Below, one piece after another: positions 3,512 to 16,653 of a DNA stretch of 25,412 nt. The notes under the pieces are model-generated. The model was not told where the DNA came from and did not search any database. It saw only the letters and a program-made list of their open reading frames with translations. The position numbers were made by a program, and so were the translations under genes. This DNA comes from a virus. The stretch is from IMG/VR virus record IMGVR_UViG_3300030103_001836, positions 1 to 25,412 of that record; one strand, 5' to 3'. Every line of letters starts with the position of its first letter. Positions within the stretch are counted from its first letter, which is position 1.

Positions 3512-3990
3512 TGGTAGACCCAGTAAGTGCTATCGCTATAGCCGGTAGTGCATTTAACGCTTTAAAAAAAGGGGTATCGATAGGCAGAGATATTGAGTCC
3601 ATGGGTAAAGACTTGTCACGTTGGATGTCGGCTGTATCCGATATTGACAGGGCGCATCACGAAGCGAAGCACCCACCTATATTCAAGAAGCTATTTTCTG
3701 GTGCCTCTGTTGAGCAAGAGGCTATCGAGTTATTCACGCAAAAAAAACAATTAGAAAATCAAAGAGATGAACTTAGAAAATTGATATCAGCAATGTGTGG
3801 TCCAAATGCTTGGCAAGAATTGTTGCGGATGGAAGCAGACATACGAAAACAGCGCAAAGAAACATTATATGCGCAGAGAGAAGCAAGAAGACACTTTGTT
3901 GAGATTGTTAGCATCATGTTTCTTGTAATAACGATTGTTGGATTTTTCATTTTTATTTTATTTCTCTGGCAGAACAGAGGTTCAGCATGA
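3511..3990 (+). CDS. Conserved marine-phage protein with C-terminal membrane anchor
   Basis: The protein has 159 residues. It has a small-residue N-terminal stretch (VSAIAIAGSAFNALKKG), a long charged helical middle with heptad-like spacing (residues about 65-128, rich in E, K, R and Q), and one strong transmembrane segment at about 131-153 (EIVSIMFLVITIVGFFIFILFL). It is translationally coupled at both ends: TAATG with the previous gene and a 4-base overlap with the next. Proteins of this shape are widespread in marine myo- and podoviruses and lack an assigned function. The location in the holin/endolysin block suggests a lysis or membrane role, for example holin regulation or a spanin-like function, but there is no lipobox. 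Confidence 0.75.
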   Translation: MVDPVSAIAIAGSAFNALKKGVSIGRDIESMGKDLSRWMSAVSDIDRAHHEAKHPPIFKKLFSGASVEQEAIELFTQKKQLENQRDELRKLISAMCGPNAWQELLRMEADIRKQRKETLYAQREARRHFVEIVSIMFLVITIVGFFIFILFLWQNRGSA

Positions 3991-4286
3991 CAAGAAAAAA
4001 TCCGCATGATTTGGATGGTGACGGCATCGTTACCAAAGAAGAATTAGAAACAGAAGAGCAGATTATACGGCTAGAGAATAGTAACCGTATGGCAGACCAG
4101 CAGCGACTAATCTGTTGGGTTAGCTCACTGTCGAGCATAGTGCTTATCTGCATAAGCATGTCACCGATCATACCAGACAGCAGGATAGAAATGGTTACAG
4201 CGCTGCTGAGTACATACGTAGTAGCGAACTTAGGCATCGTTGCTACATTTATGACAACAAGTGCCTGGGCATCTAGGAGTAAATAA
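3987..4286 (+). CDS. EF-hand-containing small membrane protein
   Basis: This 99-residue protein begins with a canonical 12-residue EF-hand loop at residues 8-19: D8, D10, D12, G13, V15 and E19 occupy positions 1, 3, 5, 6, 8 and 12. A charged helix follows (residues 20-40), then two membrane segments at about 41-64 (WVSSLSSIVLICISM) and 69-94 (MVTALLSTYVVANLGIVATF). It overlaps both neighbours: the preceding gene by 4 bases and the holin start by 1 base. Related EF-hand plus two-TM proteins occur in marine phage lysis regions (family knowledge). A calcium-sensitive holin or antiholin is an attractive but unproven idea; only a single EF loop is present, whereas EF-hands usually work in pairs. 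Confidence 0.72.
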   Translation: MTRKNPHDLDGDGIVTKEELETEEQIIRLENSNRMADQQRLICWVSSLSSIVLICISMSPIIPDSRIEMVTALLSTYVVANLGIVATFMTTSAWASRSK

Positions 4287-4681
4287 TGTTGCAAGCAATC
4301 ATTGGCGGTGTGACACCGCTGTTAGATAAATTTATTGAAGATAAAGATCAGAAAAATGCATTAGCCCATGAAATCGCCACACTCGCAGAAAAACAAGCCC
4401 ACGAAGCAGCCCTCGCTCAAGTCGGAGTCAATAAGCAAGAAGCCCAACACAGATCAATTTTTGTTGCTGGATGGCGTCCCTTTGTCGGATGGGTCTGTGG
4501 GGTGGCGCTTGCGTACCACTTTGTCTTTGCTCCGCTTATTCTTTTCGCAGCTGCGATTGCTGGTGTTGAAATACCAGAATTACCTAGTTTCGATATGGAA
4601 ACATTAACCACAGTTCTGCTTGGAATGCTTGGGCTAGGTGGTTTGCGCAGTTTTGAAAAGGCAAAAGGATTGACCAAATGA
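4286..4681 (+). CDS. Holin, 3-TM GTA-type
   Basis: This 131-residue protein resembles the family named 'holin of 3TMs, for gene-transfer release'. It has an N-terminal amphipathic region (LQAIIGGVTPLLDKFIEDKDQK), a helical charged segment to about residue 55, then the family-typical sequence RSIFVAGWRPFVGWVCG. This leads into hydrophobic segments at about 61-77, 78-93 and 103-120 (TVLLGMLGLGGLRSFEK). The gene sits immediately before the endolysin, with a 4-base ATGA overlap, which is the usual holin-endolysin order. It should permeabilise the inner membrane to release the endolysin at the end of infection. Confidence 0.85.
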   Translation: MLQAIIGGVTPLLDKFIEDKDQKNALAHEIATLAEKQAHEAALAQVGVNKQEAQHRSIFVAGWRPFVGWVCGVALAYHFVFAPLILFAAAIAGVEIPELPSFDMETLTTVLLGMLGLGGLRSFEKAKGLTK

Positions 4682-5196
4682 ATACAAATTTTGAACAGTG
4701 CTTTGCCTGGCTTATGGAGCATGAAGGAGGCTTTGTAGATCACCCAGATGACCCAGGTGGCGTAACCAATTTAGGTGTGACACAGCGCGTCTATGAAGCC
4801 TACTGCATAGAACAGGATTTTGTTGCTAAAGATATGCGTGACCTCACAGAAGAAGATGTGCTGCCAATTTATAAAAGAAATTACTGGGATAGGGTCATGG
4901 GTGACAAACTCCCAGGCGGTATCGATTGGTCAGTGTTTGATTGGGCAGTCAATAGCGGAACAGGCAGAGCTGCACGCATGTTGCAGAAGCACGCTGGGGT
5001 TACAGCTGATGGCGTTATAGGGCAGCAGACACTCAAAGCAGTGTATCACCTAGACCCCAAAGAAACAGTAGAACGGTTGTGTATGCGGCGGCAGGCGTTC
5101 TACGAGCGACTAAAAACTTTCGAGACTTTTGGTCGAGGTTGGACACGCCGTAATAACGAAACCAGGGAGCAGGCGCTTAGCCTGATTACAACATGA
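4678..5196 (+). CDS. Endolysin, GH108 lysozyme with peptidoglycan-binding domain
   Basis: This 172-residue enzyme cleaves the peptidoglycan glycan strand. The glycoside hydrolase family 108 signature is clear: W11-L-M-E-H-E16-G-G, where E16 of EGG is the predicted catalytic acid, followed by DDPGGVTNLGVTQ. Residues about 58-100 (EEDVLPIYKRNYWDRV, FDWAVNSG) complete the GH108 core. Residues about 101-168 match a PG_binding_3-type region (GVTADGVIGQQTL, and RRQAFYERL...RGWTRRN). No signal peptide is seen, fitting release through the upstream holin. The start overlaps the holin stop (ATGA). Confidence 0.93.
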   Translation: MNTNFEQCFAWLMEHEGGFVDHPDDPGGVTNLGVTQRVYEAYCIEQDFVAKDMRDLTEEDVLPIYKRNYWDRVMGDKLPGGIDWSVFDWAVNSGTGRAARMLQKHAGVTADGVIGQQTLKAVYHLDPKETVERLCMRRQAFYERLKTFETFGRGWTRRNNETREQALSLITT

Positions 5197-6071: not shown

Positions 6072-6326
6072 ATGTATATTACAGGGCAGCGCATCTACTA
6101 CACTGGTGACATGGCAAATAGGTCAGGGTGGGGTACGGTAACACATGTACGTCCATGTCAGTTTTACCAACTTAATTATACACTCGAAATGATGGACGGT
6201 AGAATATTCAGTCTTACACCGTTTGAGATCACAGACAGTTTCAACGGTCAATCTACTTTTCGTTTTGTAACTAAAGAAAGTTATGACGAGTATCGTTCAG
6301 CTGCGATGGAGCAGTACCATGTCTAA
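6072..6326 (+). CDS. Small protein of unknown function upstream of integrase
   Basis: ATG at 6072 is chosen because GGAG at 6062-6065 is well placed; the in-frame ATG at 6060 lies upstream of this site. The product is 84 residues with a likely beta-rich fold: RIYYTGDMANRSGWGTVTHV, then YTLEMMDGRIFSLTPFEI. The TGDMAN.SG.G pattern is reminiscent of short plasmid and phage proteins of unknown function. It overlaps the integrase start by 8 bases and would be co-transcribed with it under the operator at 6010-6024. It could act in recombination directionality, but it lacks the winged-helix look of known excisionases. Function unknown. Confidence 0.7.
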   Translation: MYITGQRIYYTGDMANRSGWGTVTHVRPCQFYQLNYTLEMMDGRIFSLTPFEITDSFNGQSTFRFVTKESYDEYRSAAMEQYHV

Positions 6327-7470
6327 GCAACTAAAAGTATTCAAGCATAGAAATTATTGGGTGATAGATGCAAGACGTTTAGGTATGCATCAGAAGTTTG
6401 GTAATTATAAGACAGAAAGCGCAGCAAAAAAAGCAGCTGCTGAGCTTCTAGTAAAAGCAGACTTAGGTATTACAGAAAACACAACTTCTATCAAATTAGC
6501 TGACGCTGCTGCAAAAAAATATTTTGCACAATTACAACTCAAAGTTGATGCCGGCAAGATTGGCAAAGAACATTACAAAGATGCAGTTCGCTGTGTAAAA
6601 TATGTTTTAGACATCAAAATAAATAATATGCGTTTTGGGTCTTTACAGCTGCAAAAAATTGTGCAGCCAAAAAATGCAGAGCTGTTAGTCAACACATTTA
6701 GCATTGCTATTGAGAAGGGTAGCAACAGCAAATCACGCGCCGCTGCACGTTTAAAGATGGCAAAAGCATTTTTAAATTTTTGTCAGCTGCAAGGGTACAT
6801 CACAAACAATTTTTTAGACAAAGTAACACTAGGTCAAAGTTACGAATTATCTAGCCGCACAGATCGCGTAAAGAATTTTAGCAGTCAGACTATGCGTGAT
6901 GTGCTTGAAGTCGGTCTAAAAGGTGAAGCAGATAACTGGCGCGTCATGTTTCTTGTTGCTATGTACACCGGCATGCGCCAGGGCGAGATACGCGCATTGA
7001 CATGGGCAGATATCGACTTTGATGCAGGCGAGGTAGATATTAATAAAGCAGTAAAGCGTGACGGTGGTCATGTTATAGGCACAACAAAAACTAAGCGCGG
7101 TAATCGTGTTGCTGTGCTACCAGCTGACGCTATCCAAGAGCTGCGTAAGCTTCGTCTGAGTTCACGGTTTAGTGCTGATACAGATATCATTTTTGCAACT
7201 AACACTGGGCAGCCCAAGCAGCCTAAAACAATCCGCGAGCTAATGTATCGTATCCAAGAACGTACAGGCATCGATATTATCTGGAGTGACCTACGCCATT
7301 ACTTTGCCAGCCACATGATTACCCAGCTAGGCACAGACTGGGCAGAGATAGCTGCAAGTATGGGTCATACAAACAGCAACTTTACATATCAACAGTACGG
7401 ACACAGCATCCGTAACGCTGAGAAACAAAACCAGAAAAAAGCAGCTGCTGCTGCAATGTTAGGGGTGTAA
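6319..7470 (+). CDS. int: Tyrosine-family integrase
   Basis: The integrase has 383 residues from ATG 6319, supported by GGAG at 6308-6311. An N-terminal arm-binding-like domain covers about residues 1-60, a core-binding SAM-like domain about 60-175, and the catalytic domain about 190-370. Catalytic residues: R220 in YTGMRQGEIRALTW, a beta-hairpin lysine near K257/K259 (TTKTKRGNR), R326 in SDLRHYFASH, H350 in MGHTNSN, and the nucleophile Y360 in YQQYGH. The usual histidine of the HxxR box is replaced by S323, seen in some active recombinases. It should recombine attP with the host tRNA-Asp gene. It follows the attP region, as is normal for this class. Confidence 0.95.
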   Translation: MSKQLKVFKHRNYWVIDARRLGMHQKFGNYKTESAAKKAAAELLVKADLGITENTTSIKLADAAAKKYFAQLQLKVDAGKIGKEHYKDAVRCVKYVLDIKINNMRFGSLQLQKIVQPKNAELLVNTFSIAIEKGSNSKSRAAARLKMAKAFLNFCQLQGYITNNFLDKVTLGQSYELSSRTDRVKNFSSQTMRDVLEVGLKGEADNWRVMFLVAMYTGMRQGEIRALTWADIDFDAGEVDINKAVKRDGGHVIGTTKTKRGNRVAVLPADAIQELRKLRLSSRFSADTDIIFATNTGQPKQPKTIRELMYRIQERTGIDIIWSDLRHYFASHMITQLGTDWAEIAASMGHTNSNFTYQQYGHSIRNAEKQNQKKAAAAAMLGV

Positions 7471-7471
7471 C

Positions 7472-7885
7472 ATGGAGCCGCGTCTAATAGAAAAGTATAG
7501 AGTTGGTGGTGACATAAAAACACTGGGTGCGCATGAGACACGCTGGCAATTTGGTAACCATGAAATCCGTGTCCGGGTGCGCCGGGGTAACTGGCAATAT
7601 CACATGAACGCTGGTGCAAGAGTAACAGCAGAATATGATCCTGGTTTAAAAAGGTTTCCAGAATGGCTAGATGTACGCTGCCCAACTATAACAGATGACC
7701 AGCTGCCGAATGTTGTGGAATGGATGCGCTGTATACTGAAAGAAGACGCAGACACTAGATCATTTGATGTAAGTAACAAACGCTATCTGCCGCGCAAAAA
7801 AGAGTTCAGAGGGTCTAGTAGCAGATATAATATTATAACTAGAGAAATAGGTCAGCCGCAGCGTGTACAGTCATGGACTGATTAG
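7472..7885 (+). CDS. Hypothetical protein downstream of integrase
   Basis: This 137-residue protein starts one base after the integrase stop, with AGGGG about six bases upstream, so it is in the same transcript. It is basic with several tryptophans and has a probable beta segment (WQFGNHEIRVRVRRGNWQYHM). No membrane segment, HTH or catalytic motif is evident. I do not recognise the family. Its stop overlaps, tail to tail, the end of the leftward HTH gene by 4 bases. Confidence 0.65.
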   Translation: MEPRLIEKYRVGGDIKTLGAHETRWQFGNHEIRVRVRRGNWQYHMNAGARVTAEYDPGLKRFPEWLDVRCPTITDDQLPNVVEWMRCILKEDADTRSFDVSNKRYLPRKKEFRGSSSRYNIITREIGQPQRVQSWTD

Positions 7886-8109
7886 TTACCCAAGCTAAGA
7901 CCTTTTGAACCTACAGCAACGCCCGGAGCTTTTGTCTTCGGGCTTGTTATATTCTCAATATCTTCACGCCTAAAATAAATATAACGTCCATCTCTTATGG
8001 GTTCTATATTGTTACTGTCAGCAAAACGCATTGCCCGTTTTCGTGCTGTTTCAGTTGTCTGACCAAATAATAATTCTGCTGCTTGTTTTGTATTTATTAA
8101 TAATGACAT
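7882..8109 (-). CDS. Excisionase-like HTH DNA-binding protein
   Basis: This 75-residue protein reads leftward. Residues 5-55 form a MerR/excisionase-type winged helix-turn-helix: NTKQAAELLFGQ, ETARKRAMRFADSN, then the wing-like IRDGRYIYFRREDIENI. This is the HTH_17/Xis layout. AGGT lies about eight bases upstream of ATG and overlaps the stop region of the preceding gene. It is the last gene of the leftward recombination operon and converges on the integrase operon, so it would be expressed during lytic growth or induction. That fits a recombination directionality factor, although transcriptional regulation is an alternative. Confidence 0.75.
   Translation of the reverse strand: MSLLINTKQAAELLFGQTTETARKRAMRFADSNNIEPIRDGRYIYFRREDIENITSPKTKAPGVAVGSKGLSLGN
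7921..7950 (+). terminator. Possible terminator of the integrase operon
   Basis: GCCCGGAG / CTTCGGGC forms an 8-bp stem (one G-T pair) with loop CTTTTGT, 35 bases after the end of the integrase operon. The following TTGTTAT is a weak U-tract. It lies inside the 3' end of the convergent HTH gene. Confidence 0.45.
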
Positions 8110-8115
8110 AATATT

Positions 8116-8472
8116 TTACCTAAATGACCGTCTTGGTGTTGCTGTTGTTTCTGCGCTTGCTGGCTGAGTTTCATAACTGTCCGGACGTTCAACCTGAGAA
8201 TGCTCGTTACTGCCGCTGTACGAGCCTGTATCAGCCTCGTTTTTTTCATCCGGTGGAAATAATTTTGCATTGCCCATTTTCTCCCAATCCTCGTTCTTTT
8301 TTCTTTGAGAAAATGCAATGGACGGTGATTGTCCTGTCTTATCCCAATAGTTCGTAAGTAAGCTGGCTAGTTCGTCATCTACGTTGAGATATAAGGCTAC
8401 TCCAACCTGGGCTGTGCCTGGCGCTGGGAATGCTACTTTTACATTTGAATTTTTATAATCAGGCGCTGCCAT
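8116..8472 (-). CDS. Unknown protein of the recombination operon (118 aa)
   Basis: Leftward, 118 residues. The start overlaps the annealing-protein gene by 14 bases and has GAGG about nine bases upstream of ATG, so translation is coupled. The first 55 residues look folded (VKVAFPAPGTAQVGVALYLNVDDELASLLTNYWD). The last 50 are hydrophilic, acidic to polar and probably disordered (DEKNEADTGSYSGSNEHSQ). The position after nuclease and annealing protein, and the disordered acidic/polar tail, recall SSB-like proteins, but I see no clear OB-fold signature or acidic phenylalanine-ending tail (it ends RRSFR). Function unresolved. Confidence 0.7.
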   Translation of the reverse strand: MAAPDYKNSNVKVAFPAPGTAQVGVALYLNVDDELASLLTNYWDKTGQSPSIAFSQRKKNEDWEKMGNAKLFPPDEKNEADTGSYSGSNEHSQVERPDSYETQPASAETTATPRRSFR

Positions 8473-9037
8473 TTTTTAATTCCTCTTCTTTTTCTTCATA
8501 TGCTATTACTATTTTTGTCCATTCGTCCGGGTCTTGCTTTTCGAGCGCGTCCATTTGACTTGTTGATTTATCAAACCAAGCTGCCAGCTGGACTTGTGAT
8601 TTACATGCTGTAATTGAACCATGCGCTGCTATGACAAAATCTGTCATGTCCTGTTGTGTGTCGATTGCTACCTCTACCTCGAAGGCGCTAGCCATTTCGC
8701 CGCCATGTAATCCGAACATACCCAGACATCTGCCAGCTGCGGATGTTTCCGCATTTTCAAGAGCGCTGGTTTTATTTATGTTGGTGGTTCCGCGAAACTC
8801 TTCGGCGTGTCCAGTTGCCAGCACATTGCCAGCAGTATCTTTTATGACAGAGCGCACGACTATGCGTTTGCCGTCATCTATAAGTATCTCATTTTGGATG
8901 CTGTATTTAGTGCCAAAATGTTTGCGAAATATCTCAATGCGCATTGGCACTGTGCTATATTTTTTGTTGTGGATGCTCAGACCACCATCTTTGTTAAGTT
9001 GTTTTAATTCTGCGAGAGCAGACTGCATATCATCCAT
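8459..9037 (-). CDS. Single-strand annealing recombinase (ERF/Rad52-like)
   Basis: Leftward, 192 residues. The start at 9037 (MDDMQSALAELK) is preferred over an upstream in-frame start because AGAGG lies seven bases upstream and the TGATG junction couples it to the small membrane gene. The core KYSTVPMRIEIFRKHFG, then IVVRSVIKDTAGNVLATGHAEEFRG, and NKTSALENAETSAAGRCLG (about residues 88-106) with FGLHGGE is typical of phage annealing proteins of the ERF/Rad52-like group in marine phages. The C-terminal helical part (from about 150) is more variable. It would anneal complementary strands resected by the nuclease encoded two genes upstream, giving a RecE/RecT-like pair. Confidence 0.82.
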   Translation of the reverse strand: MDDMQSALAELKQLNKDGGLSIHNKKYSTVPMRIEIFRKHFGTKYSIQNEILIDDGKRIVVRSVIKDTAGNVLATGHAEEFRGTTNINKTSALENAETSAAGRCLGMFGLHGGEMASAFEVEVAIDTQQDMTDFVIAAHGSITACKSQVQLAAWFDKSTSQMDALEKQDPDEWTKIVIAYEEKEEELKNGSA

Positions 9038-9210
9038 CAATAAACCTCTGTCGTTAGTGTGATTAAAATAAAAAATAGCAACACAGCTATTAAAAACGCA
9101 GCCATCATGCCAGCTAAGATTCCTACCAAAACTAAAAAGCTGCGCAGTGTTGTGTATCGCCTGCGCCGGCGAGGTGTAGCAGCTTGTATGTGCATACTCA
9201 GTTTGCTCAT
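9037..9210 (-). CDS. Small membrane protein between nuclease and annealing protein
   Basis: A 57-residue leftward gene. Its ATG (9210) overlaps the nuclease stop as TAATG and its TGA overlaps the annealing-protein start as TGATG, so it fits exactly between the two genes. The sequence has a basic N-terminus (residues 13-18, PRRRRR) followed by about 33 hydrophobic residues (about 21-53: SFLVLVGILAGMMAAFLIAV then LLFFILITL), long enough for one long or two short membrane helices. The positive-inside rule puts the N-terminus in the cytoplasm. Family not recognised. A membrane protein in a recombination operon is unexpected; it could be a superinfection or lysis-timing factor, or a membrane anchor. 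Confidence 0.72.
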   Translation of the reverse strand: MSKLSMHIQAATPRRRRRYTTLRSFLVLVGILAGMMAAFLIAVLLFFILITLTTEVY

Positions 9211-10130
9211 TATGCGAATCCAAATAGTTGTTTTGCTTCGAACAATGCTTCCGGGCTTATGTTCCAGGCATACATGTGACTGAAGTCGGGTTCTATAAGG
9301 GCGAACAGCTGTTCTTTTGTTTCAGCTGTCTTCAATAAATTTTCACGGATTTTGCAGCGTGCTGTAATAGCTTGTGCGCGTATGTGCATCGCTTCGTCTT
9401 GCAGCTGCTCACAATTATCTTCTGTGTGTACATTTGTTTTTGTGGCGCTGGTCTGCACAATGCATTGTGATAAGCGATTCGTTATGACCCAATACCCGGT
9501 AACCTGACACAGATGGCTGTGTGTTGGGTTTGTTGGCACGCTGCCGGCACGTTTGCCAGACTTGGTATCAGCAACACTAGACCATACCGTTTTTAATTCC
9601 ACACGCTTGCTATAGTCTGGTTTGCCATTAAAGCGCAGCTGTAAACCTCGCCAGTCTGCTAGTATGTCTGCCTCACCAGTAAGTCTATTCAATCCCAATG
9701 CTGCTTGCGCTTCGTTTAACCCTTCTAATGCGTTTTTAAAGACGCTGTGCAGCTCCTCTGCACAAATCTCTGCTTGTGCTGCATCTTTTTCTGCCTGCCA
9801 GTTGAGGGGCTTGTAATCGCGGAATGCAGCTGCACCGTGTTCCATTGCTTCTTCTTGGCTCTTATTTTCAAGAATCACCATGTCGCACATTTCTTGAACA
9901 GTGCGCCCGGCCAGCATTTTGGCATTGGTTTCTGCGTATTTATTGATTGTTTTGAATGCTTGCGATTTATCGCCAGCTGCTTCGCCTTTTACAACTTGCC
10001 AGGCTGCATTTAATGCAGGGCGTACATGCACTTTTTCGAAAAACTTTTTACAAATAGGAACTGATTCTGGGTTGCTGTGATGTGACCAGTTATATCTCTT
10101 TGCAAAGTGTGGTGTTTCTTGAAATGCCAT
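9210..10130 (-). CDS. RecB/Cas4-like PD-(D/E)XK exonuclease
   Basis: Leftward, 306 residues. The PD-(D/E)XK core is visible: G152-E-A-D region, P171-D172 in FNGKPDYSK, E178-x-K180 in VELKTVW, then a Q209...Y213 motif (CQVTGYW) typical of RecB/Cas4/YqaJ-type nucleases. The segment MEHGAAAFRDYKP (about 96-108) fits the conserved helix preceding the core. It probably degrades duplex DNA ends to expose single strands for the annealing protein made from the same operon. The start at 10130 lies just downstream of a good promoter-like sequence and a hairpin in the leader. Confidence 0.85.
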   Translation of the reverse strand: MAFQETPHFAKRYNWSHHSNPESVPICKKFFEKVHVRPALNAAWQVVKGEAAGDKSQAFKTINKYAETNAKMLAGRTVQEMCDMVILENKSQEEAMEHGAAAFRDYKPLNWQAEKDAAQAEICAEELHSVFKNALEGLNEAQAALGLNRLTGEADILADWRGLQLRFNGKPDYSKRVELKTVWSSVADTKSGKRAGSVPTNPTHSHLCQVTGYWVITNRLSQCIVQTSATKTNVHTEDNCEQLQDEAMHIRAQAITARCKIRENLLKTAETKEQLFALIEPDFSHMYAWNISPEALFEAKQLFGFA

Positions 10131-10137
10131 AGCGGTT

Positions 10138-10155
10138 GTCCGTAAGTTTTCGGAC
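10138..10155 (-). promoter_or_regulatory. Leader hairpin/inverted repeat before the nuclease gene
   Basis: GTCCG and CGGAC are separated by 8 bases (TAAGTTTT), ending eight bases upstream of the nuclease start. It could be an operator or an mRNA hairpin near the ribosome binding site. The stem is only 5 bp. Confidence 0.35.
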
Positions 10156-10156
10156 G

Positions 10157-10186
10157 AGTATGCATTTCAAATGATTTATGTGTCAA
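10157..10186 (-). promoter_or_regulatory. Predicted promoter of the leftward recombination operon
   Basis: On the minus strand, TTGACA (10186-10181, a perfect -35) is followed after 18 bases by CATACT (10162-10157, 4 of 6 to TATAAT). It directs transcription into the nuclease gene about 27 bases on. The TTGACA also resembles one half-site of the palindromic operators elsewhere, but there is no symmetric partner. Confidence 0.55.
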
Positions 10187-10230: not shown

Positions 10231-10980
10231 TTATGCTTCATATGGAACTATTTCTAAGTCACGTAGGTCAGGTCTGAAAATGCTGCCTAGCACTGGACAT
10301 GCCCATTTTAGCTCGACACCAGTTTGTGTTTGTACATTGCCAAAACCCAGTGTTTTTGGAACATGCACTGTGTAGCGATTAAATTCTGGTTCTGGATATA
10401 AATAACCCCATAAATGCAATTCATCAGAAGTCATACAATAACATAAATTTTGAAAACAATTTTTATCCACGCCTTTATTGTAATAGTCTACATTGATAAT
10501 ATCTAGCTTGCTGGGCGTCCACCACGGCGTTTGTGGAAATCCTGTTTTTGCATATTCTTCTGCTGTAAAATCATACATAAATACGCCTATCTGCCTGGAG
10601 TATAAAGTACGCAAATAAACCATGTCACATTTAGTGACTTCAGTATTAGACATTTGCAGGCACAAACCGTACTCATATTTTCTGACTAATTGCGGATTAG
10701 TTGGGCAATAATTTGATATACTCCATTTGCCAATGATAGGATGTGGGTCTAATGGATATAATATTTCTGCGCTTCGGCAGCCTAGTATTTGTGCATATTC
10801 ATCCGCATCTTTACGTGTTAGGTGGATTTTGCCACTGCAATGTCGCGATAGCGTTTCTGGCGCTATACCTTTACGCCTGGCTACCTCTTTTTTCTCCATG
10901 CCAGTTTGTCTAATTTTCTTTGACAAATTGTTATACAATGTATCCATAATACTATCTTTGTCATGATTCGCATGTCGCAT
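10231..10980 (-). CDS. Phage repressor, XRE-type HTH with non-LexA C-terminus
   Basis: Leftward, 249 residues. ATG at 10980 is chosen because a strong GGGGAGGAA lies eight bases upstream. About residues 13-75 form an XRE/Cro-CI helix-turn-helix: NNLSKKIRQTGMEKKEVARR, then KGIAPETLSRHCSGKIHLTR. The rest (about 80-249) has no S24/LexA peptidase signature (no Ala-Gly cleavage site with Ser/Lys pair). It is rich in aromatic residues and cysteines (PWWTPSKLDIINVDYYN). It is divergent from a Cro-like gene across palindromic operators, the standard repressor position. Loss of the peptidase domain implies inactivation by an antirepressor or ligand rather than RecA-stimulated cleavage (inference). Confidence 0.82.
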   Translation of the reverse strand: MRHANHDKDSIMDTLYNNLSKKIRQTGMEKKEVARRKGIAPETLSRHCSGKIHLTRKDADEYAQILGCRSAEILYPLDPHPIIGKWSISNYCPTNPQLVRKYEYGLCLQMSNTEVTKCDMVYLRTLYSRQIGVFMYDFTAEEYAKTGFPQTPWWTPSKLDIINVDYYNKGVDKNCFQNLCYCMTSDELHLWGYLYPEPEFNRYTVHVPKTLGFGNVQTQTGVELKWACPVLGSIFRPDLRDLEIVPYEA

Positions 10981-11056
10981 TATAAATTCCTCCCCATAAC
11001 CATTCAAATATTTTGTTTATCAAGTCATGTATCGTCACGCGCCGACACAGACAGAC

Positions 11057-11302: not shown

Positions 11303-11711
11303 AGATGAGTTCCAAAAACTAATAGCTAAATGGCTGGATGCTGCGTTGCCAGAAAAAAGTCTATGGCACCATTCTCCTAATGAGGGTAAGCGGCACGTTG
11401 CCTATACCAAAAGATTAATAGACCTGGGCATGAAGCCAGGGTTTCCGGATATAGAGATATTCGTACACCAAGAGTTTTGGTGGGATGGGATTGCTTCACC
11501 AATTTTTGTAGAGGTAAAAGCGCCCAATAAAGGCAGGCTCACAGACAAACAAAAGCAAGTGCAAGACCAGCTGCTCGAACTTGGCTGCGCTGTAGCAACG
11601 GTTGATAAACTATCACAGCTTAAATATTTTTTAGGCAATTTGATAGAGCTGCGTTCAAACCCAAAAACCAGTATGCAAGAAAAGTATGCCAATCAATTAG
11701 GTGCGCTATGA
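11295..11711 (+). CDS. VRR-NUC domain nuclease
   Basis: From ATG 11295 (a second in-frame ATG lies at 11283), 138 residues. The VRR-NUC PD-(D/E)XK core is complete: LIDLGMKPGFPD with P51-D52, FVEVKAP with E73-x-K75, and Q86 in TDKQKQVQ; the HHSPNEGKR motif at 25-33 is also typical. Stand-alone VRR-NUC proteins in phages act as structure-specific nucleases and are related to the Fan1 nuclease domain; some resolve Holliday junctions or replication intermediates. It overlaps the Cro-like gene and the next gene (ATGA). Confidence 0.9.
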   Translation: MSEDEFQKLIAKWLDAALPEKSLWHHSPNEGKRHVAYTKRLIDLGMKPGFPDIEIFVHQEFWWDGIASPIFVEVKAPNKGRLTDKQKQVQDQLLELGCAVATVDKLSQLKYFLGNLIELRSNPKTSMQEKYANQLGAL

Positions 11712-11911
11712 TTTGCCCTCATTGCGATGTTGACGGTAAGCATTTTGTCGATAGTACAAGAGAAACACGCAATAGAATAATTCGCAAACGTAAATGCAAA
11801 TTTTGTGAGGGGCGTTTTGAGACTATTGAGCTAGTGAAAAAACCAACAGACGTAATGTCTGACCGCATGCTAGAGCGATTAATCTACGAGGGGGTTATCA
11901 TACATGACTAA
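11708..11911 (+). CDS. Stand-alone NrdR-like zinc ribbon protein
   Basis: A 67-residue protein coupled by an ATGA overlap to the nuclease gene. C3-P-H-C6 and C30-K-F-C33 form a zinc ribbon, with VDSTRE.....IIRKRKCKFCEGRFETIE matching the DNA-binding N-terminal domain of NrdR. The ATP-cone regulatory domain that follows in bacterial NrdR is absent; the C-terminus is a short helix (SDRMLERLIYEG). It could bind NrdR boxes and alter ribonucleotide reductase expression of the host, or be a phage-specific DNA-binding factor. No effector domain is visible. Confidence 0.8.
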   Translation: MICPHCDVDGKHFVDSTRETRNRIIRKRKCKFCEGRFETIELVKKPTDVMSDRMLERLIYEGVIIHD

Positions 11912-15978: not shown

Positions 15979-16439
15979 TTGAATTGCGCATAGCAGACCA
16001 TAGCGACATTGATGCTATTTTGGAAATAATCGAAGAAGGTAACCAAGAATCACGGTTTGCCGGTGAGTATGATAGCTGGACAGCACGACATTATCTAAAG
16101 CATTTTTTAGACATACCGGACGCTGATATTTGCCTTGCTGAGCTAGATGGTGAGCTGCTAGGCGGTGTAATGATGTGTGCCAGCTGGGAATGGTGCAAGC
16201 AGCCGCTAGGGTATGTGGTTAAGTTTTGGGTACGTAAAGCAGGCAGGCGTACCCAGGCAGCACGTTTTTTGATGAAATTTATAGATGATTTTGCAGCAGA
16301 ATATAAGTGCAGCGCTGTGTATGCGACAGCAACAGCGGAGCTAGATGCACGCGAACAAAAATTATTTGAGAATCTGTTTCATAAAAATGGATTTGCAGAT
16401 GTCGGGGCAACATTAAAAAAAGGGTATAGTCATGGGTAA
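15975..16439 (+). CDS. GNAT-family N-acetyltransferase
   Basis: 154 residues, coupled to terminase by ATGA. GNAT features: N-terminal IRIADHSD-like strand (LRIADHSDIDAILEIIEEGN), core strand ICLAELDGELLGGVMM, then YVVKFWVRKAGRRTQAARFL in the place of the acetyl-CoA-binding V-x-x-x-x-R-x-x-G segment, and a C-terminal strand ending FHKNGFADVG. The canonical Q/R-x-x-G-x-G/A loop is degenerate here (RKAGRRTQAA). GNAT genes at this place between terminase and portal are common in marine podoviruses; the substrate is unknown. Confidence 0.82.
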   Translation: MIELRIADHSDIDAILEIIEEGNQESRFAGEYDSWTARHYLKHFLDIPDADICLAELDGELLGGVMMCASWEWCKQPLGYVVKFWVRKAGRRTQAARFLMKFIDDFAAEYKCSAVYATATAELDAREQKLFENLFHKNGFADVGATLKKGYSHG

Positions 16440-16653
16440 GTTTAATCCACCATCACCGCCGCCACCGCCGCCACCTCCACCTCCGGCACCACCAATACAG
16501 CCGGCATCGACTAAGGCAACTGAATTTACACGCACGCAGCAGGCACAGAAAAAAGGTCAGGCAGCTGCTGTGGTTACTGGTGGACAAGGTTTATTAACAG
16601 AAGCGCCAACACAAAAGCCTCGTTTACTTGGGCAGAATAAGATGAAAAGCTAA
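16432..16653 (+). CDS. Proline-rich small phage protein
   Basis: 73 residues. Residues 7-21 are almost pure proline after a serine (ten consecutive prolines), then a polar linker and the conserved-looking GGQGLLTEAPTQKPRLLGQN. Short proteins with an N-terminal proline tract and an LLG ending lie between terminase and portal in many podoviruses. The proline run should stall ribosomes without EF-P. It may be a minor virion or connector-associated protein. Overlaps the acetyltransferase by 8 bases and the portal start by 1 base. Confidence 0.75.
   Translation: MGKFNPPSPPPPPPPPPPAPPIQPASTKATEFTRTQQAQKKGQAAAVVTGGQGLLTEAPTQKPRLLGQNKMKS

Follow-up and report, generated by a model that had tools for sequence, protein, structure and literature searches.

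The recombination operon and its surroundings

On the minus strand of the window, by which we mean the whole 25,412-base virus record analysed here, a gene of 57 codons (9037..9210) lies between an exonuclease-like gene of the PD-(D/E)XK type (9210..10130) and an annealase-like gene of the phrog_11717 type (8459..9037). Upstream of the exonuclease gene, on the same strand, is a repressor-like HTH regulator (10231..11007) that matches PF13443 above the cut-off (E 7.7e-7) as well as repressor PHROGs (best E 1.5e-5). The annealase gene is followed, again on the minus strand, by a conserved gene (8116..8472) that is present in most sufficiently long records and is called SSB-like by position only, with no significant family match in the libraries searched (Pfam and PHROG among them), and by a small HTH gene conserved in relatives (7882..8109), for which the label excisionase-like reflects position and a weak match (HTH_17, E 0.0055, below the cut-off; excisionase PHROG, E 0.14 only). 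A tyrosine integrase gene (6283..7470, plus strand; PF00589, E 9.4e-23) is convergent with the operon. The lysis cassette occupies 4286-5196 and comprises a GTA_holin_3TM holin gene (4286..4681, plus strand; PF11351, E 2.3e-20) and an adjoining GH108 endolysin gene (4678-5196). Directly before the holin gene is a 99-aa ORF (3987-4286) with hydrophobic segments and a weak EF-hand-like match below the cut-off. No tRNA gene was found in the window.

The names exonuclease and annealase are likely rather than proven, since they derive from weak fold matches, from phrog_11717 membership and from an mgM101-like resemblance. Residues D172, E178 and K180 of the exonuclease, whose pattern we take to be that of PD-(D/E)XK enzymes, are invariant in 13 aligned sequences. 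Its AlphaFold2 model (pLDDT 80) gave as best Foldseek matches in the PDB SSO0001 (presumably a Cas4), LHK-Exo, MGME1, lambda exonuclease and RecE, all of them weak (E 2.5e-3 to 0.23, none at or below 0.001), and the protein has no Pfam match. The annealase belongs to phrog_11717 (E 1.1e-21), a PHROG family with no assigned function, and resembles by tblastn a gene annotated as mgM101-like (E 5e-18). Sequence searches of solved structures in the PDB returned nothing significant for either protein.

A promoter-like site, TTGACA-18-CATACT (10186-10157, minus strand), precedes the exonuclease ATG, although promoter matches in the region were not above the number in shuffled sequence (10 versus 8.6). 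The window leader (10131-10157) contains a short palindrome only, GTCCG-N8-CGGAC (10138-10155, minus strand), with no SD or T run. Relatives such as L036, L061 and L106 have a hairpin just before the exonuclease ATG, and in many relatives an SD-like GAGG lies in the 3' arm of the hairpin and a T run behind it. Leaders folded with z < -2 in 47 of 63 window-type, 3 of 20 lytic-type and 2 of 8 HTVC028P-type cases, compared with 6 of 120 control leaders, which were evaluated under a slightly laxer shuffle than the phage leaders. Of 53 leaders with loosely defined SD-like bases, 47 have these bases paired, and 23/62 leaders were terminator-like, versus 3/283. The leader hairpin could be a switch for the operon of overlapping genes as a whole. 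In a MAFFT alignment of 16 leaders, RNAalifold detected no common pairs, a result that we attribute to misaligned arms. By eye, a TGACA-N4-TGTCA-like, operator-like palindrome is also visible in L024, L141, L017 and others, positioned over a -35-like TTGACA approximately 40-60 nt upstream of the exonuclease ATG.

The small membrane-protein gene and its conservation

The first-pass annotation had placed the 57-codon gene exactly between the exonuclease and annealase genes by means of TAATG and TGATG junctions, and both can be read in the sequence: the exonuclease stop codon (9212-9210) shares a base with the small-ORF ATG (9210-9208), as does the small-ORF stop codon (9039-9037) with the annealase ATG (9037-9035). 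Because the genes overlap, the small ORF is probably translated together with the exonuclease. The annealase frame is also open across the small ORF in the window, as part of a 254-aa ORF starting with TTG. We rejected the corresponding N-terminally extended annealase, as the small ORF is conserved in relatives and is in many of them separated from the annealase gene by other genes.

The arginine-rich segment and subsequent hydrophobic stretch from which a membrane protein had been proposed are likewise present, the former as five consecutive arginines. By hydropathy and AlphaFold2, the product is predicted to be a single-pass inner-membrane protein. Its 19-residue Kyte-Doolittle maximum is 2.93 (the protein is identical in L002), which corresponds to one membrane segment, and the model has a long helix at residues 13-56 (mean pLDDT 82) preceded by a short helix at residues 2-11 (pLDDT ~65). 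According to the positive-inside rule, charge bias is linked to membrane topology. As charge is higher on the N side than on the C side in 51 of the 53 distinct proteins of our first survey (median +4 versus 0; 22 later loci are outside both this count and the selection counts below), an N-in topology is predicted. The small protein has no significant match in Pfam, PHROG, NCBIfam (searched with the window's protein only) or PADLOC; the best sub-significant values were those of DUF3413 in Pfam (E 0.0016, for 4 of 27 members, the window's not among them) and 0.048 in PHROG. For the terms searched, no prior report of such a gene was found among the titles listed from the open-licence PMC literature.

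The small ORF is a real, conserved gene and not a chance reading frame. Exonuclease searches, together with HTVC028P, gave 103 distinct records, in 3 of which the exonuclease is cut off while 2 end too soon. In 97 of the 98 assessable records, many of which are near-duplicates, the homologous exonuclease gene is followed by an ATG-started ORF of 35-90 aa with a 19-residue mean hydropathy of at least 1.6, so that the conserved small ORF for which a search of relatives had been suggested is indeed there. The offset from the exonuclease stop is -1 in 84 records, +2 in 6 and +4 to +20 in 6 others; in one (L021) the ORF lies at +193, behind an extra ORF, and L072 is the sole record with no small membrane ORF after its exonuclease. 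After de-duplication, a membrane ORF follows 46 of 48 exonuclease stops; for the stops of other long ORFs the count is 10 of 379. L072 and L021 are the two records whose first post-exonuclease ORF has no membrane helix. The extra ORF of L021 (2668-2865) encodes 65 aa, and an ATGA overlap joins it to the exonuclease gene on one side and to the small membrane ORF on the other.

Purifying selection, proposed earlier as a check on the gene, was found in relatives: pN/pS, pooled within length classes over pairs with at least 50% amino acid identity, was 0.09-0.34. This selection is shown on the relatives rather than on the window copy, because the latter is identical to that of its near-identical relative L003 (zero nucleotide differences in the small ORF). 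In the window's own clade, eight sequences share an HIxxATP motif with H7, I8, A11, T12 and P13 unchanged in all of them; once all window-type clades are included (27 sequences), not one column is invariant. In three of six clades, including the two largest, selection constrains the N-terminal part more tightly than the membrane part (pN/pS of 0.22, 0.20 and 0.05 versus 0.43, 0.42 and 0.59, respectively); in the other three it does not.

Gene neighbours, integrase and lifestyle

The neighbours of the small ORF were profiled in 106 records, namely the 103 above, the window, L173 and L175. The small ORF is accompanied by an ERF-type annealase in 43 of these (ERF was confirmed by Pfam in four examples), by the window's type in 42 and by a third type, which has no family match, in 2; in 13 records with the small ORF there is no annealase in reach. 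In the second slot there is a phrog_13625-type gene, or one that looks winged-helix-like by eye, or no gene. When the small protein was used as query, in the form of clade alignments because an all-clade alignment was too diverse to scan with, 43 of 43 loci found also held the exonuclease, although 41 of these were already known through the exonuclease and L173 and L175 were the only new records. The search with clade alignment A5 yielded 2 real matches among 28 pattern matches, from two near-identical records. Since annealase types swap while the exonuclease is constant, it is the exonuclease that the small ORF accompanies, not the annealase, and the operon can be regarded as a mosaic in which the exonuclease and membrane-protein genes stay and the annealase is exchanged. 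An obligate partnership with the annealase is rejected on the same grounds.

At the level of sequence, the tie to the exonuclease is looser. The exonucleases of L004 and L008 are 95% identical and their small proteins 31%, while those of L175 and L031 are 34% identical and their small proteins 74%; judged from such pairs, small-protein and exonuclease sequences are exchanged independently. Overall, small-protein distances correlate with exonuclease distances (rho 0.63). Given the exonuclease, partial correlations are -0.07 to 0.13 for the annealases, SSB-like genes and HTH genes, and 0.32 and 0.46 for the second-slot genes. The operon of L003 differs from window positions 7882-10130 at 23 of 2,249 bases, with 18 of the differences lying beyond the annealase gene, while its portal is only 28% identical to the window's; this combination of a near-identical operon and a divergent portal suggests that the recombination operon moves between phage backbones.

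We take the window's virus to be a temperate, marine, podovirus-like phage that is related, judged by its portal, to HTVC010P-type pelagiphages. The portal is 56-58% identical to those of eight of ten named relatives and 49% identical to that of HTVC028P; the portals of C72C1 and HTVC106P gave no match to it. PMC10504331 places HTVC028P and HTVC024P among the HTVC010P-type phages, and PMC11094077, on the Sargasso Sea, describes many phages of this type, such as PNP1, as encoding an integrase. A host could not be assigned from scans of genome contigs with exonuclease alignments, in which 16 and 35 pattern matches included no confirmed relative.

Within the phage collection, the exonucleases of the window and HTVC028P match those of Pelagibacter phages plus C72C1. 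The slot behind the exonuclease was inspected in 11 of the 19 matching records: HTVC028P, HTVC106P, C72C1 and eight others, Skadi-1 being the only one of nine Skadi phages among them. HTVC028P carries a small membrane ORF (gp08), and C72C1 and HTVC106P have no membrane ORF in the slot. In seven of the eight further isolates the nuclease gene overlaps the next gene directly, and Skadi-1 has a 62-aa non-membrane ORF in the slot. We found a tyrosine integrase in 20 of 23 window-type records (including L072, which has no small ORF) and in HTVC028P, and in none of the ten named relatives that do not have the small membrane ORF.

A wider sampling gave a similar picture. Among HTVC028P-type loci the slot holds a membrane ORF in 27 of 27 tested (29 were found; L311 and L315 are cut and were left out), and among 78 assessable lytic-type loci, drawn from the best 80 of 331 relatives with 2 not assessable, there are no genuine membrane ORFs in the slot. 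L261 and L264 are counted as misses in the lytic-type set because the ORFs in question begin 263 nt further down, within the annealase ORF. An integrase is present in 5 of 7 HTVC028P-type versus 0 of 10 lytic-type records checked, where "lytic" signifies that no integrase was found and nothing more. The exceptions run both ways: L039, L173 and L175 (~32 kb) keep the small ORF with no tyrosine or serine integrase match, and L072 has an integrase and no small ORF. Beyond the HTH gene, L039, L173 and L175 have what appear, by eye and from ORF reading only, to be lysis-type ORFs.

Fisher's exact test on the table of integrase against ORF (20/3/1/10) gives 2e-5, a value that overstates the association because the exonuclease tree permits a single gain or loss to account for it (branch support 81/71). 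The presence of the small ORF follows the integrase, although not in every record, and a single change in evolution may account for this. A short gene that matches no family library searched separates integrase-bearing from integrase-less related phages.

These observations alter the proposal that the small protein is a membrane partner of the exonuclease/annealase pair. As stated, the proposal is not supported. The small ORF is retained when its annealase neighbour changes family, its sequence and that of the exonuclease are exchanged separately, lytic-type relatives manage without it although they have an annealase and an exonuclease of this kind, and its presence tracks the integrase, albeit with exceptions. 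The small ORF may still have a role with the exonuclease, which it adjoins throughout.

Candidate functions

We tentatively favour the explanation that the small ORF encodes a temperate-specific inner-membrane effector in the exo-xis slot, which would bias the establishment of lysogeny or the exit from it. Under this mechanism, the activity would reside in the basic N-terminal peptide, predicted to be cytoplasmic, while the helix near the C-terminus would anchor it in the inner membrane, where the protein would act soon after infection or induction; its effect would resemble that of the lambda exo-xis ORFs, and its partner is more likely to be a membrane or membrane-bound factor of the host than the annealase. 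What the data establish is the gene, its predicted architecture, its conservation and overlap, and its company with the integrase; an early role at the membrane in tuning lysogeny is our inference. The case for it draws on the conserved place of the ORF, the charge bias, the tighter constraint on the N-terminal part in three clades, the company of the integrase and the second type of protein in the HTVC028P slot. It is weakened by the integrase exceptions, by the possibility of a single gain or loss, by the three clades with no such constraint and by the non-hydrophobic lambda and P22 counterparts.

The strongest outside support for such an effector is positional. In lambda, an ORF of ~60 codons (orf60a) in the same slot is tied through an ATGA overlap to the 3' end of exo, and the early operon runs on to xis and int; the window's small ORF also follows the exonuclease gene in a phage with an integrase, the xis call here resting on position and a weak HTH match. 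Deletion of orf60a or orf61 is described in PMC6213356 and PMC8614690 as impairing the lysis-lysogeny decision and induction, and the latter models Orf60a as a small β-sheet DNA-binding domain. Unlike the window's protein, the products of the lambda exo-xis ORFs are not hydrophobic (19-residue maxima of 0.54-1.02), and the orf60a and orf63 families, DUF1317 and DUF1382, are absent from its Pfam matches.

Similar partial likenesses were seen elsewhere. P22 Arf, needed for full recombination activity according to PMC9836394, is a 47-aa product whose ORF lies immediately upstream of erf and overlaps it, but with a net charge of -11 and a hydropathy of 0.21 it differs from the basic, hydrophobic window protein. 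CIII and Kil of lambda and P22 are tiny early proteins from the recombination operons of temperate phages, but have no membrane span by hydropathy (0.23-0.77). A like architecture is seen in gp08 of the integrase-bearing HTVC028P, annotated as a hypothetical protein, which occupies the same slot and has a basic N-terminus and a C-terminal membrane helix (hydropathy 2.5); hhalign nevertheless detected no relation between its clade and the window family (probability 2%, from short profiles with little power). Because neither the lambda ORFs nor P22 Arf are hydrophobic, membrane anchoring is the new element, and the small ORF may be an uncharacterised relative in kind of the small accessory ORFs in temperate-phage recombination operons.

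The main rival is a membrane tether, in which the basic peptide would bind DNA or the exonuclease and keep end-processing of the phage genome at the inner membrane, which would help circularization ahead of integration. Temperate phages need circular DNA, a need that this role would suit, and the constant place beside the exonuclease, the correlation of exonuclease distances with those of the small protein (to which annealases, SSB-like and HTH genes add little) and the retention of architecture while sequence varies all point the same way. Against it are the nearly identical exonucleases with very different small proteins and the converse pair, the partial correlations retained by the second-slot genes, and the lytic-type relatives that use the same kind of exonuclease with no small protein. 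A tether would thus explain the place after the exonuclease better than a lysogeny effector does, and the decoupling of the sequences worse; we consider it possible, if on balance unlikely.

Allele-like swapping at a fixed site, the occupation of one slot by types with no detectable homology, the predicted membrane location and the company of an integrase would also be expected of a protein that serves the temperate members in superinfection exclusion or immunity and acts on incoming DNA at the membrane. The gene nonetheless appears to sit with the exonuclease behind a promoter-like site rather than in a recognisable prophage-expressed module, and its product matches no known family, so that an exclusion role seems improbable to us. 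More improbable still is an inhibitor of a host nuclease or defence system, comparable in function to Gam, Abc2 or gp5.9: a place in the recombination operon is shared with lambda gam and P22 abc2, but P22 Abc1 and Abc2 are not hydrophobic (0.63 and -0.05), lytic-type relatives would need such a protein equally, and there was no PADLOC and no significant PHROG match.

Two further candidates were rejected and strike us as scarcely credible. A holin or pinholin would be small and hydrophobic as this protein is, but the small ORF comes after the exonuclease in all records bearing it, and the holin and endolysin genes stand together in a separate lysis cassette. A spacer with no protein function, serving to keep exonuclease and annealase translation coupled, would account for the tight stop-start overlaps, but not for purifying selection in relatives, the conserved motif, retention in changed gene orders where other genes part the small ORF from the annealase, or absence where the nuclease and the next gene overlap directly.

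For the favoured lysogeny effector, a broader version can be envisaged in which the post-exonuclease position is reserved for a lysogeny factor anchored in the membrane and is left empty in strictly lytic lineages. We regard this as doubtful; if true, the slot would be filled by small basic membrane proteins with no detectable homology, whose alleles are swapped under near-identical exonucleases, and it would represent a membrane-based lysogeny control or a genome-circularization station of abundant ocean viruses with no lambda or P22 counterpart. The cultured pair of HTVC028P and Pelagibacter HTCC1062 makes the small gene a concrete target for tests.

Two other short ORFs of the window have distinctive compositions. 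One of 73 aa (16432-16653), just before the portal gene, starts with a run of ten prolines. The other, of 67 aa (11708-11911), has four cysteines arranged as CPHC and CKFC pairs, which presumably recall the zinc ribbon of NrdR.
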